The position numbers and the translations under genes are program-made. From Prochlorococcus sp. AG-676-M04 (lineage in GTDB: Bacteria; Cyanobacteriota; Cyanobacteriia; PCC-6307; Cyanobiaceae), in assembly GCA_003210895.1 (NCBI GenBank), contig QCUB01000011.1, positions 1 to 36,396 on the forward strand: 36,396 nt of DNA. Reading direction: 5' to 3'. Below, one piece after another: positions 22,828-28,086 of this stretch (position 1 is the stretch's first letter; each line of letters starts with the position of its first letter). The notes under the pieces were generated by a model. The model searched no databases. It worked only from the letters and a program-made list of their open reading frames with translations, and was not told the origin of the DNA.

Positions 22828-23118
22828 GTGGAATTGACTGAATTAATAAAAGATTATGTAACCACCGAATTATTATCAAGTATTGAACTTGACTATCTTG
22901 AAGGAGAGTTATGGGAAACAACTCAACATATTGCAGAGATAAATACATTGACTACGGCTCCAATAAATATATGCAAGAAATTAGACCTAGATGAAAATTC
23001 TTGCTGGCTATTATGTTGCGCAGCTGTTCTTGATTTTTCAAGACCTTTAAAGATTAAACAAGAGAGAGTTAATAATTTAAAAAAATTAATTATTCAATAT
23101 AATCTTTCCGATAAATAA
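22828..23118 (+). CDS. 96-residue hypothetical protein, GTG start
   Basis: Begins with GTG 22828 (no earlier ATG). A soluble helical protein, ELTELIKDYVTTELLSSIELDYL..., with a cluster of cysteines in the middle (ENSCWLLCCAAVLDF). The strong terminator directly after its stop supports it being expressed. Not recognised. Confidence 0.7.
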   Translation: MELTELIKDYVTTELLSSIELDYLEGELWETTQHIAEINTLTTAPINICKKLDLDENSCWLLCCAAVLDFSRPLKIKQERVNNLKKLIIQYNLSDK

Positions 23119-23123
23119 TAAAA

Positions 23124-23146
23124 AAGACCCCTTATAAAGGGGTCTT
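23124..23146 (+). terminator. hairpin terminator after the 96-residue gene
   Basis: Perfect 10-bp stem AAGACCCCTT/AAGGGGTCTT with a 3-base loop, beginning five bases after the stop of the gene at 22828. The T-run after it is weak on the plus strand (TTAATTGGTTTTA), while poly-A precedes it, so it may terminate in both directions. Confidence 0.85.
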
Positions 23147-23790
23147 AATTGGTTTTAATAAATCAGGTGTTTCCTTGTTTCCACTAATTAAATAAAACCT
23201 CTCCTACACACAAATATATAATCGCATTAATAATTAAAAGAAGAAATAACTATTGGGCATGTATATAAACTGTCACAAGATTAAAAACAAAAAATACCCA
23301 AAGCAGAGTTTGGATATTTCGAATATCAGAAAAATATGTGTGAGGAGTTTCTGATCCTTTAAATTTACACCTAATTGAATTGAAATAGCTACAGTATAAA
23401 TTCCTAATTTTGAGTTTTTGTGTTCATTAATAATTAAACCTAGGATAATAAAATGAGTAAAAGTAATTATTAAATTAAAAAGAAATACAAAAAAGATAAT
23501 TTACATTTTCTCAATTATGTTCACTTTTACATTAATTAGACGAGTTGAAAAATATTTTACTAGATAAATAGATAATAATCTTGATATGTATTTTCTTAAA
23601 ACAAAGAGGGGTACTATATACTTCAATTGAAAAACCTTTTTAAAGGTAACTAAAAACAAATTTTTTATTTTAAAAATATCTAGTCTTCAATACAGTATAA
23701 ATAAGAGATAAATAAGAATAATTTAAGTATAAATTCACTTCAAAAAATTAAAAATCTATCTTATATAAATCACAGAGATAAGAGGACTTT
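23147..23790. other. 644-base gap without protein genes
   Basis: Both strands were read for ORFs and no convincing gene was found. The gap is rich in short A/T runs. The only structured part is the small-RNA candidate on the minus strand at 23284-23386; the rest, 23147-23283 and 23387-23790, shows no repeat or gene that I can support. The 3' part presumably holds the promoter of the gene at 23791. Confidence 0.6.
23284..23386 (-). ncRNA. candidate Yfr1/Yfr10-type small RNA
   Basis: On the minus strand the region reads ATCAGAAA, then CTCCTCACACATATT, then TTTCTGAT: an 8-bp hairpin whose loop displays CTCCTCACAC. With the A before it this is ACTCCTCACAC, the ultraconserved motif of Yfr1 that the Yfr10 family also shares. 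Next come a small hairpin (GATATT-CGA-AATATC) and a 7-bp terminator stem (ATCCAAA/TTTGGGT with one G-U pair) followed by T-rich sequence. A TATACT lies upstream (23398-23393) as a possible -10, placing the start near 23386. Yfr1 itself usually has the motif between stem-loops, so this loop placement favours a Yfr10-like RNA. Ends are estimated. Confidence 0.6.
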
Positions 23791-24430: not shown

Positions 24431-25219
24431 TTAAAATTTATTTCCAATTTTTGGAATTATTAATGAAGCAACGCAAATAACACTTATAGCAGGACCAGGA
24501 GATAAGTTTAAAACAATTGAAACAATAAAACCCAATAGAGAAATACAAAGTCCAAAGAATGAAGATCTCATCATTGCAATCCTAAGACTTTGTGCTTTAT
24601 CAAGTCCTAATAAAGTAGGTGTTGATAGTAATGCAATTACTAAAATTACTCCAACAGCTGACATTGAACTAACGATAACTAGTGCAGTCGTGAAACTTAG
24701 AGCTAGGTTTAATAAAGACACATTTATTCCACTAGCTGAGGCGCCTTCTGGATCTAATCCAACATATACAACTTTTTCATATCCGAACGTTATTAATAAA
24801 ATGAATGTTAGAAAAGCAATAATTGTTCTTAACAAATCGCTAAGGTTTGCGGTTAATAAATCCCCAAATAATACTGCCTCTAAATCTATTCTTATCCCAA
24901 GAAGTGGAATTAGTAAGACTCCAAAACCAAGCATGCCAGCAAGAATTGTATTCATTACTGCTTCATAATTTTCACTTTTTTTGTTAGTTAAACTTTCTGC
25001 AATAACTGCACCAAGAAGACCACTAATAACTCCTCCAATTGAGGGATGAATACCTAGAGCCAAAGCGAGAGCAAGTCCTGGTAAAACACAGTGAGAAATT
25101 AAATTGACTTGTAATAATCGTCTATGAGTTATTAAGACGGTTCCCATCGCTGGGCATAAGATTCCAGAGAAAATAGTAATTATTAAAGGGATTAACCACC
25201 AGTTGTTTAAAAAAGACAT
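24431..25219 (-). CDS. znuB: zinc ABC transporter permease
   Basis: 262 residues with about eight transmembrane segments, matching the ABC-3 family of metal permeases (ZnuB/MntB/PsaC). Diagnostic parts are the first helix block ending GTVLITHRRLLQVNLISHCVLPGLAL and the later GVILVIALLSTPTLLG, which is the coupling region to the ATPase. With ZnuA and ZnuC it imports zinc across the inner membrane. It starts 53 bases from zur, divergently, so it is not in one transcript with znuC. Substrate identity comes from context (Zur, ZnuA). Confidence 0.93.
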   Translation of the reverse strand: MSFLNNWWLIPLIITIFSGILCPAMGTVLITHRRLLQVNLISHCVLPGLALALALGIHPSIGGVISGLLGAVIAESLTNKKSENYEAVMNTILAGMLGFGVLLIPLLGIRIDLEAVLFGDLLTANLSDLLRTIIAFLTFILLITFGYEKVVYVGLDPEGASASGINVSLLNLALSFTTALVIVSSMSAVGVILVIALLSTPTLLGLDKAQSLRIAMMRSSFFGLCISLLGFIVSIVLNLSPGPAISVICVASLIIPKIGNKF

Positions 25220-25272
25220 TAATCGTATGATTCGTTATGATCTAAAAAACAGGACATTAAAAGATCTTGAAA

Positions 25273-25671
25273 ATGATGGTAACCAAGCCTGACATTACCA
25301 AAAGACAAGAGCAACTTCTTGAAGAACTTAAAAAATGTGATGATGAATTGAGTGGTCAAGAATTGCATAGACAATTGATTATCGATGGCAAATCTATGGG
25401 TTTGACAACAGTTTATAGAAATCTTCAAGTTCTTATAAAACATGGATTAATTCGATCTAGACATCTTCCAACAGGTGAAGTACTTTACACTCCTGTTGAT
25501 AGAGATATTCACCATCTGACATGTGTTCAATGTGGAGAAACCTCCAAAATGGAAGGTTGTCCGGTAAAAGATATTCATAGCCCCAAGAAAAACCCAAAAA
25601 AATTTCAACTTTTGTTTCATACACTTGAATATTTCGGACTATGCCAAAACTGTTATCAAGCTCAGAGTTAA
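25273..25671 (+). CDS. zur: Zur, zinc-responsive Fur-family repressor
   Basis: The track begins at a TTG; ATG 25273 or 25276 is the likelier start, giving 131-132 residues. A winged-helix domain (RQEQLLEELKK...GLTTVYRNLQVLIKHGLI) precedes a dimerisation domain with the sensor elements DIHHLTCVQCG and FGLCQNC, which make the structural CxxC...CxxC zinc site. Position among znu genes identifies it as Zur rather than Fur or PerR. It sits between znuC and znuB on the opposite strand. With zinc bound it would repress the two Zur-box sites found in the window. Confidence 0.9.
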   Translation: MMVTKPDITKRQEQLLEELKKCDDELSGQELHRQLIIDGKSMGLTTVYRNLQVLIKHGLIRSRHLPTGEVLYTPVDRDIHHLTCVQCGETSKMEGCPVKDIHSPKKNPKKFQLLFHTLEYFGLCQNCYQAQS

Positions 25672-25685
25672 ATTTAAAAATATTT

Positions 25686-26456
25686 TTAATCACAAGAATT
25701 ATTCTCTTTTAAAGAACTAATATTAAGATCATCTAATTTGCCTTGTATTGAATTGGGACTTCCGGATGCTAATACTGTTTTATCTAAAACTACTACCTGA
25801 TCATAATTATTGAGAGATGCACCCCAGTCATGACTGCTTATAAACAAAGCTAAGCCTGCATCTGCAAGTTGACGAACTATCTTAAGAAAATCGTCCTTTG
25901 CGGGAGGATCTAATGCAGCGCATGGTTCATCTAGTAGAAGAATACTTGCGGGAGACATTAAAGTCTTAGCCAAAAGGGCTCTTTGTTGTTGTCCACCAGA
26001 AAGAGAATCAAGTCTTCTATTTGCCAGATTTGAAATTCCAACTCTTTGCATTGTTGCTTCCAATTCGCAACATTTATTGACCCAAGACTTAGGATTTGCG
26101 AGAAGAGCCTTTATTTGGAATGGATTAGCATTTTTTGATTTTGAATATTTTATTTGACCTAAAGAGACTAATTTTTCAACAGTAATAGGAAATTTCCAAT
26201 TCATTGAGCTTCTTTGAGGCATAAGTGCAACATGGGATCTAGCTTTAACTAAACTTTCACCATTAATACTTATATCTCCAATATCAGGATTATTTTGTCC
26301 TTGCAATAATCTCAAAAGAGTTGATTTACCAGCACCATTTGGTCCTACAAGAGCCGTTAAAGTTCCTGGTTTTATTTCAACTGAAACCTTATTTAAAGCT
26401 GGTTTACTTTTTTTTGAATAAGAATAAGTTAGATTATCTGCGATTAAAGTAGACAT
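25686..26456 (-). CDS. znuC: zinc ABC transporter ATP-binding protein
   Basis: 256 residues: Walker A GPNGAGKST (38-46), the ABC signature LSGGQQQRA (152-160), Walker B SILLLDEP (171-178) and a switch histidine in FISSHDWG (H209). An insertion (SKNANPFQIKALLANPKSW) between the Q-loop and signature is larger than usual. It energises ZnuA-ZnuB zinc uptake. It stops 14 bases from the zur stop, convergently, and is divergent from znuA across a 139-base promoter region with a Zur box. Confidence 0.95.
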   Translation of the reverse strand: MSTLIADNLTYSYSKKSKPALNKVSVEIKPGTLTALVGPNGAGKSTLLRLLQGQNNPDIGDISINGESLVKARSHVALMPQRSSMNWKFPITVEKLVSLGQIKYSKSKNANPFQIKALLANPKSWVNKCCELEATMQRVGISNLANRRLDSLSGGQQQRALLAKTLMSPASILLLDEPCAALDPPAKDDFLKIVRQLADAGLALFISSHDWGASLNNYDQVVVLDKTVLASGSPNSIQGKLDDLNISSLKENNSCD

Positions 26457-26554
26457 TAATGAATATATTTAAATCAGTTACGAATTATAGTTTACCAATT
26501 TTAAGGAATCCATACTATTTTATAACAATTGATACCAACTATTGCCATCTTAAA

Positions 26555-26569
26555 TGAAAACGATTATCA
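26555..26569. promoter_or_regulatory. Zur box between znuC and znuA
   Basis: TGAAAAC-G-ATTATCA matches the cyanobacterial Zur consensus TGATAATNATTATCA at 12 of 14 informative positions, with a perfect right half. It ends 26 bases before the znuA ATG, so it should cover that promoter. A minus-strand TATAAT (26489-26484), which could serve znuC, lies about 66 bases from the box, so control of znuC is less clear. Confidence 0.8.
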
Positions 26570-26595
26570 TTTTTAGGTATTAAAAAAATTTTTAA

Positions 26596-28086
26596 ATGTC
26601 AATTTTTAGAAGAGTACTCTTTAGTAATAAGAAATCTAAATATGCAATTGTCAAAAACTCTTTACTAGCAAGCACCATTTTATTTTCTACTGTTAGTCAA
26701 GATGTTTTGGCAAAAGGAAAATCATATGTAGCTGTAGAGCCACTAACTTGTGATCTGGTTAAATCAATAGCCTTAACTTCAGACAAAGTAACCTGTTTGG
26801 TAAAAAGAAAACAAGATGTACATGACTTTAAAATCACTCCAAGACAGGCTCAATTACTTAACAGTGCAGATAAAGTTTTTACTCTTGGGAAAGAGATGAC
26901 CCCAAGCATGAAAAATTGGGAGAGTAAGCCTCAAACTGTTGTAATTGGTGTAAGTGCTATAGATGTAGATGATCATTCCGATCATGGCGCACATGATGAT
27001 CATTCTGACCACTCTGCAGCAAAAGTAGATGATCATTCCGATCATGGCGGACATGACGATCATGCAGAGGGATCATTTGAATGGGCAGGCAAGTTTAAAC
27101 TATCTAAAGGTTCCTACAGTTGGTCATTCGCAAAGTTAGGCGGGGAATATGCAGATCCAGCCATGAAAATGGTAATTCTTGAATCAAATGATATTGAATC
27201 TTCTGAAGAACTAGCTAAAGAGCTATTAGGGTCTAAGGACTCAATAAACAAAAAAAATAATGGAACTCTCGTAGCGAGTAATAAAGCCTATGTTCTTAAT
27301 TTTGACCAAAGGAAGGAGATTACAGTATTTAATGTGAAAATTGAAAAAGATGGCCAATATACATTCTTTACTGAACATATGCCTTTTGAATTTGAATCAG
27401 ACGAGCACTTCTTTAAAGATGTATCCAATAGCGATGTCGAACCAATTGCACAAGTTCCAGATGAAGGAGAAGGTCATCACCATCATGACCATGGGGGTTT
27501 AGACCCACATGTTTGGCATGATCCTCATAACATAATAAAAATGGGAGAAATAGTAAGTAAAAGTTTAAAGAAAGATATCTCTGTTTTTAATAGATCTGAC
27601 AGAAAATTAATCAATTCGAGTTTTGCTTCTGTAGATTCAACACTAGAAGAACTTGATAGTTGGATTGTTGAACAGGTTTCAACAATTCCAGAATCAAATA
27701 GAGTTATTGTGTCTAAGCATAAAGCGATGGAATATTATGGTGATGCTTTTGGATTCGAGACTATTAGTTTACTAGATTTTCTTGGTGACTCATCAAGCCT
27801 AAGACCAGACAATATCCAAACAACATTGAAGATGCTTGATGAAGAAAATGTTAAGTCAATTTTTCCTGAACAAATACCAGCTTCTAAGTTATTAAAAAAT
27901 TTAAGCAGACAAAGTTCGGTTCCTTTAGCTTCTAATCAAATATTTGTTGATGGATTAATGATGACAGGGAATACAGTTTCAGTTGCGGTTCACAATACAT
28001 GTACCATTGTTAATTCATTAGGTGGATCATGTGATAGAAAAGCTGGCTCCAACTTGGAAGACACCTGGAATTCAATACAAAATTAA
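26596..28086 (+). CDS. znuA: zinc-binding ABC transporter protein with inserted domain
   Basis: 496 residues, far longer than usual ZnuA (about 310-340). A signal peptide (LLASTILFSTVSQDVLA) precedes a periplasmic solute-binding fold. Likely zinc ligands are H76 (DVHDFKITP), H305 (LDPHVWHDPHN), H375 (SKHKAMEYY) and an acidic residue near D452. The histidine-rich loop is split: HSDHGAHDDHSDH repeats (residues 124-157), a domain of about 120 residues (SFEWAGKFKL...PFEFESDEHFF), then GHHHHDHGG (293-301). The gene should bind zinc in the periplasm and pass it to ZnuB. A Zur box precedes it. Confidence 0.93.
   Translation: MSIFRRVLFSNKKSKYAIVKNSLLASTILFSTVSQDVLAKGKSYVAVEPLTCDLVKSIALTSDKVTCLVKRKQDVHDFKITPRQAQLLNSADKVFTLGKEMTPSMKNWESKPQTVVIGVSAIDVDDHSDHGAHDDHSDHSAAKVDDHSDHGGHDDHAEGSFEWAGKFKLSKGSYSWSFAKLGGEYADPAMKMVILESNDIESSEELAKELLGSKDSINKKNNGTLVASNKAYVLNFDQRKEITVFNVKIEKDGQYTFFTEHMPFEFESDEHFFKDVSNSDVEPIAQVPDEGEGHHHHDHGGLDPHVWHDPHNIIKMGEIVSKSLKKDISVFNRSDRKLINSSFASVDSTLEELDSWIVEQVSTIPESNRVIVSKHKAMEYYGDAFGFETISLLDFLGDSSSLRPDNIQTTLKMLDEENVKSIFPEQIPASKLLKNLSRQSSVPLASNQIFVDGLMMTGNTVSVAVHNTCTIVNSLGGSCDRKAGSNLEDTWNSIQN
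26965..27063. repeat. 60-bp imperfect repeat in the znuA histidine loop
   Basis: A 39-base stretch (GTAGATGATCATTCCGATCA...) starts at 26965 and again at 27025, differing at two positions. Each copy encodes VDDHSDHG(A/G)HDDH. It looks like a recent tandem duplication that enlarged the histidine-rich loop. Confidence 0.85.

Follow-up and report, generated by a model that had tools for sequence, protein, structure and literature searches.

A predicted Yfr18-Yfr5 small RNA pair in Prochlorococcus sp. AG-676-M04

We found that the minus strand of a 36,396-nucleotide stretch of Prochlorococcus sp. AG-676-M04 DNA, analysed over its whole length and called the window here, carries a real small RNA (sRNA) gene of an already described kind. 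On the strength of its sequence, structure, family match, gene order, conservation in tandem with a second sRNA and predicted duplex with that partner, the two genes are very probably the orthologue of the MED4 Yfr18-Yfr5 pair, with Yfr18 a trans-acting, mRNA-pairing sRNA that is titrated by Yfr2-family RNAs including Yfr5. Prochlorococcus, a very abundant photosynthetic organism of the ocean, has few protein regulators, and the network of Yfr1, Yfr10 and Yfr2 is thought to tune its carbon and nitrogen metabolism. Yfr18, its adjacency to Yfr5 and the pairing of the two were reported in 2008; the exact identity of the present locus and its fixed genomic position are refinements.

Results

An earlier note on this DNA had described a minus-strand, Yfr10-like RNA and had suggested a covariance-model search. 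In that search, the Rfam Yfr10 model RF02362 matched positions 23278-23355 of the minus strand over its whole length (model positions 1-78) with 66.9 bits (E 2.1e-8). Since this score is well above the curated cut-off of 43 bits and both the motif and the hairpin are present, the reading as a Yfr10-type sRNA is right. The ultraconserved motif was found where it had been described, in the loop of an 8-bp hairpin, and its site is the only match to ACTCCTCACAC in the window when up to one mismatch is allowed (chance expectation 0.14); as in the Yfr10 family, ACUCCUCACAC lies within the hairpin loop. The stem of hairpin 1 is formed by the arms AUCAGAAA and UUUCUGAU (23355-23348 paired with 23332-23325), the first A of the motif being the last stem base, and the motif ends in CACACAT, the usual end being CACACAC. 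Hairpin and motif are kept in relatives of the strain: each hairpin 1 pair is formed in 97-100% of the sequences of 66 distinct relatives, and the stem is so nearly invariant that it gives slight covariation support. In hairpin 2, base pairs are replaced among relatives (G-C/A-U, C-G/U-A and others). The spacer, taken as gene-free in the first reading, held no convincing genes in an ORF check. Of the terminator expected after the hairpin, a 12-bp hairpin with a T run is indeed there, but its stem (23320-23291) is A/T-rich and is not called by a simple terminator scan. Although folding gives the 101-nt transcript a modest energy z-score (-1.87), we take the covariance model score as decisive for the family.

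The window had no match to the Yfr1 model RF01116 in the Rfam scan, its motif is displayed in a loop, and the separate Yfr1 of this genome is located elsewhere (RF01116, C47:4630-4683, 53.8 bits); identity with Yfr1 was rejected on these grounds. Yfr1 has the same 11-base motif and the same expected pairing with the Yfr2 family, but there the motif is single-stranded between two stems (PMC6778093), whereas in the window it is presented by a hairpin loop. A chance occurrence in an A/T-rich spacer has a negligible probability: the motif needs only 11 bases and is found bare, without the hairpin, in unrelated bacteria and viral contigs, but the Rfam E-value of 2e-8, the conservation and the synteny refute this explanation.

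Matches to the Yfr10 family were found in 219 of 266 genomes of the genus and in 84 of the 87 nearly complete ones. Some genomes (G024, G052 and G066) have five or six copies, and most of the copies inspected there have a Yfr2-family partner downstream. Bacteroidales, Planctomycetota and other unrelated bacteria gave matches to the 17-mer in which the hairpin is absent, and these were rejected as chance. Two scans of viral contigs for the motif returned 18 and 2 matches, none with the Yfr10 hairpin, and these look like coding matches; blastn against phage records returned only short partial matches (at most 21% query coverage).

The same Rfam scan detected a partner that had been absent from the earlier note. 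The Cyano-1 model RF01701 matches 23146-23213 on the same strand with 64.5 bits (cut-off, 41 bits), 64 bases downstream of the match of the upstream sRNA, and the GGAAACAAGGAAACA loop of the family is present at 23182-23168. Cyano-1 corresponds to the Yfr2 family, because the four Cyano-1 matches of MED4 fall where Yfr2 to Yfr5 are published. The upstream RNA is therefore encoded ahead of a Yfr2-family sRNA, the arrangement reported for Yfr10 homologues and Yfr2 homologues of high-light strains (PMC6778093). This arrangement is widespread: a pattern search recovered 107 cyanobacterial loci, and in 99 of them the motif is followed 163-205 nt downstream by a Yfr2-family loop; some of the eight exceptions, which have no such loop downstream, lie near contig ends. 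RNAs of the Yfr2 family carry the complement of the motif and not the motif itself, and the duplex predicted between GTGTGTAGGAG and the loop sequence CUCCUCACACA has an energy of -16.5 kcal/mol, which was equalled by 40 of 5000 shuffled loops. Pairing between the loop and Yfr5 was already proposed and written out (Steglich 2008, PMC2518516). No compensatory changes between the two RNAs could be shown among the relatives compared, in which motif and partner are nearly invariant. The TGTGACA block is near-invariant in 73 Yfr18-type loci and is present in Yfr10-Yfr2 loci too; it may serve the Yfr2-family gene as a regulator site or be part of a promoter. In reverse orientation, the Yfr5 terminator is also compatible with the end of ORF 22828-23118, which runs convergently.

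Table 1 Features of the sRNA pair, in window coordinates
Feature	Positions	Strand	Basis
Candidate -10 element (TATACT) of the Yfr18 promoter	23393..23398	-	conserved block in 73 aligned loci
Predicted Yfr18 (Yfr10-family) sRNA, about 100 nt if started at the conserved promoter	23286..23386	-	RF02362 match and two-hairpin fold
Hairpin 1, 8-bp stem and 15-nt loop presenting the motif	23325..23355	-	folding and relatives' alignment
ACTCCTCACAC, ultraconserved Yfr1/Yfr10 motif	23338..23348	-	pattern scan of the window; published unadecanucleotide common to Yfr1 and Yfr10 (PMC2518516)
Hairpin 2, probable weak terminator made of a 12-bp A/T-rich stem and a downstream T run	23291..23320	-	folding
Conserved TGTGACA block in the spacer after Yfr18 and ahead of Yfr5	23271..23277	-	alignment
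Yfr5, Yfr2-family sRNA (Rfam Cyano-1) with terminator	23118..23213	-	RF01701 and synteny
GTGTGTAGGAG, 5' motif of Yfr5 that complements the loop of Yfr18 apart from a single bulged C	23201..23211	-	duplex prediction
GGAAACAAGGAAACA, conserved loop of the Yfr2 family	23168..23182	-	RF01701 match and relatives' alignment
Strong terminator of Yfr5	23124..23146	-	called by terminator scan

The assignment within the family came from gene order. In the genome used as the MED4 reference (G033), a Yfr10-family match falls exactly at the published MED4 Yfr10 coordinates, 346661-346738. The zinc-type ABC permease gene of the window (24431-25219), 1.1 kb away from the sRNA, is 98% identical to MED4 973406-974191, and the convergent ORF matches MED4 971799-972086 with 74% identity. 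Between these two counterparts, MED4 has a Cyano-1 match at 972111-972178(-), syntenic with that of the window, and Yfr18, published at complement(972284..972388) and adjoining Yfr5 (Steglich 2008, PMC2518516); the Yfr18-Yfr5 regions of the window and of MED4 align directly. When comparable loci of relatives were fetched by an exact 17-base pattern, neighbouring genes in common with the window were present in 72 of 72 Yfr18-type loci (the DUF1499 gene in 72, the permease in 65) and in 0 of 28 Yfr10-type loci. The gene order of MED4 Yfr18-Yfr5, together with these counts, therefore identifies the window RNA as Yfr18 and its neighbour as Yfr5. As judged from sequence, the locus is the orthologue of this pair and not of Yfr10-Yfr2, and Yfr18 is a paralogue of Yfr10.

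Orthology of the window RNA to Yfr10 proper, which has Yfr2 as its partner, is very improbable. The Rfam model, motif and hairpin are identical in kind, but the gene order and the second hairpin match Yfr18-Yfr5, the spacing from the motif to the Yfr2-type loop is 166 in the window versus 186-195, and no Yfr10-type locus has any neighbouring gene of the window; synteny refutes this orthology unless gene conversion swapped the sRNA between loci. Yfr10 (RF02362; MED4 346661..346738) resembles the window RNA in the loop ACUCCUCACAC, the 8-bp stem, the downstream hairpin and the Yfr2-family gene downstream, whereas the window RNA sits at another locus with another second hairpin and a shorter partner spacing, and reaches 66.9 bits with RF02362 as compared with 99 bits for MED4 Yfr10. 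The window RNA agrees with MED4 Yfr18 (Steglich 2008, PMC2518516) in gene order as well as in motif and hairpin, and both lie next to Yfr5. The window DNA has nevertheless diverged from MED4 Yfr18 (the best local alignment on the sRNA side has 76.5% identity), with CACACAT in place of CACACAC and with other base pairs in a second stem whose pairing is kept.

A second Yfr10-family copy is present in this genome (C1:70278-70354, 44.6 bits), and the DNA beside it is 82% identical to MED4 382772-383163, next to Yfr12-Yfr4. In this copy the motif is mutated to ACTCCTTACACAC and the stem is weakened, but an intact Yfr2-family partner of its own lies downstream. A copy at the Yfr10-Yfr2 locus was not found in this assembly, which is only 72% complete.

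TATACT of Yfr18 sits in a strongly conserved block with the consensus AATTAGTAATTTATACTGTAG in 73 aligned loci. As a -10 element it would predict a transcription start near 23386, which fits the start proposed in the first reading, but the published 5' end of MED4 Yfr18 (972388) transfers by alignment to about 23422, so that either position may be the start. The leader at 23358-23386 of the minus strand, which separates the promoter-like block from hairpin 1, shows partial conservation (consensus GTAGATTAA) that extends over loci of the Yfr18 type and of the Yfr10 type alike and exceeds the need of a mere spacer. In MED4, Yfr18 stayed below the microarray threshold, and Northern bands of 29 and 76 nt were reported (PMC2518516), suggesting a low level or processing inside the motif. 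By our own arithmetic, 29 and 76 nt add up to the annotated 105 nt of MED4 Yfr18, which would place a cut inside the motif. The weak energy z-score, the A/T-rich terminator and the low MED4 signal would also suit a decayed or silent copy that has lost its expression, and a mutated motif is indeed what the genome's other copy, that of the Yfr12 locus, carries; this explanation is nevertheless very unlikely, because the window keeps intact its motif, both stems (8 bp in hairpin 1, 12 bp in the terminator) and the TATACTGTAG block.

Possible mRNA targets of Yfr18 were sought by a genome-wide search for perfect loop complements with a reversed-pattern control. Outside sRNA genes, only two perfect 10-nt complements GTGTGAGGAG were found in the genome, a count not clearly above the one match of the control. 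One lies in the coding sequence of glgC (C52:3903-3912), where the complement of the Yfr motif extends to a perfect 11 nt, and the other in an ORF resembling, by eye, an RNA methyltransferase. glgC is a published Yfr1/Yfr10 target in MED4, and its site has two mismatches in MED4 and in the other genomes found; the site can be considered a lead, not evidence, for a Yfr18 target.

Discussion

In the mechanism that we propose, Yfr18 would be a trans-acting sRNA of the Yfr10 family, about 70-100 nt long, whose loop presents the anti-Shine-Dalgarno-like ACUCCUCACAC to mRNAs carrying GUGUGAGGAG-like sites. Yfr5, transcribed either from a promoter of its own or together with Yfr18 when the weak terminator is read through, would pair through its 5' GUGUGUAGGAG with the ACUCCUCACAC motif and titrate Yfr18 away from mRNAs, as it equally would Yfr1 and Yfr10, and Yfr18 in turn could occupy Yfr2-family RNAs. 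We infer this action in the present strain by homology with the paralogues Yfr1, Yfr10 and Yfr2, whose expression and physical interaction have been demonstrated. Yfr2 pulls down Yfr1 and Yfr10 in MED4, lifts, in E. coli, the repression that Yfr1 exerts on a porin 5' UTR and, in small amounts, abolishes the binding of Yfr1 and Yfr10 to ppa mRNA, while binding of Yfr1 or Yfr10 protects Yfr2 from RNase E (2019, PMC6778093); Yfr18 is not mentioned in the main text of that paper. A 270-nt precursor of Yfr10 and Yfr2 has also been reported (PMC2518516). The pairing with mRNAs at ribosome binding sites that the earlier note had expected is part of the published picture, but most Yfr10 sites in MED4 pull-downs (64%) lie inside coding sequences, and the best-established partners are Yfr2-family RNAs (PMC6778093).

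The upstream RNA might mainly be an antagonist or protector of its neighbour Yfr5, the two forming an sRNA-sponge pair in which it has no mRNA targets of its own. The nearly universal tandem arrangement is consistent with such a role, as are the protection of Yfr2 from RNase E by Yfr1 and Yfr10 and the small amount of Yfr2 that abolishes their binding to ppa mRNA (PMC6778093). We consider it unlikely, as a MED4 pull-down with Yfr10, whose loop has the same motif, recovered 253 mRNAs (PMC6778093), and as a perfect complement of the loop is found inside glgC, though within a genome-wide count not clearly above the control. The reading of Yfr18 as an mRNA-pairing sRNA titrated by Yfr2-family RNAs is preferred.

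It is conceivable, although we regard it as doubtful, that Yfr18-Yfr5 is a two-gene switch fixed at one place in high-light Prochlorococcus, in which weak termination would set the ratio of sRNA to sponge from one transcript and whose unit (promoter, sRNA, TGTGACA block, sponge and terminator) would have been duplicated to the Yfr10-Yfr2 and Yfr12-Yfr4 loci. Yfr10 homologues in general are stated to have no conserved synteny (PMC6778093). Unlike these, the Yfr18-Yfr5 member keeps its chromosomal place (72 of 72 relatives of the sequence type) and is therefore a good site to test the balance of sRNA and sponge.

Two viral contigs (L170:9588-9605 and L171:378-395) contain an 18-base Yfr2 loop sequence in identical surroundings, apparently in a coding frame, which is probably a coincidence. 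In the window, the permease gene belongs to a zinc/manganese-type ABC transporter cluster at 24431-28086 (permease, ATPase and histidine-rich binding protein), within which a gene for a Fur-family regulator is located at 25267-25671.
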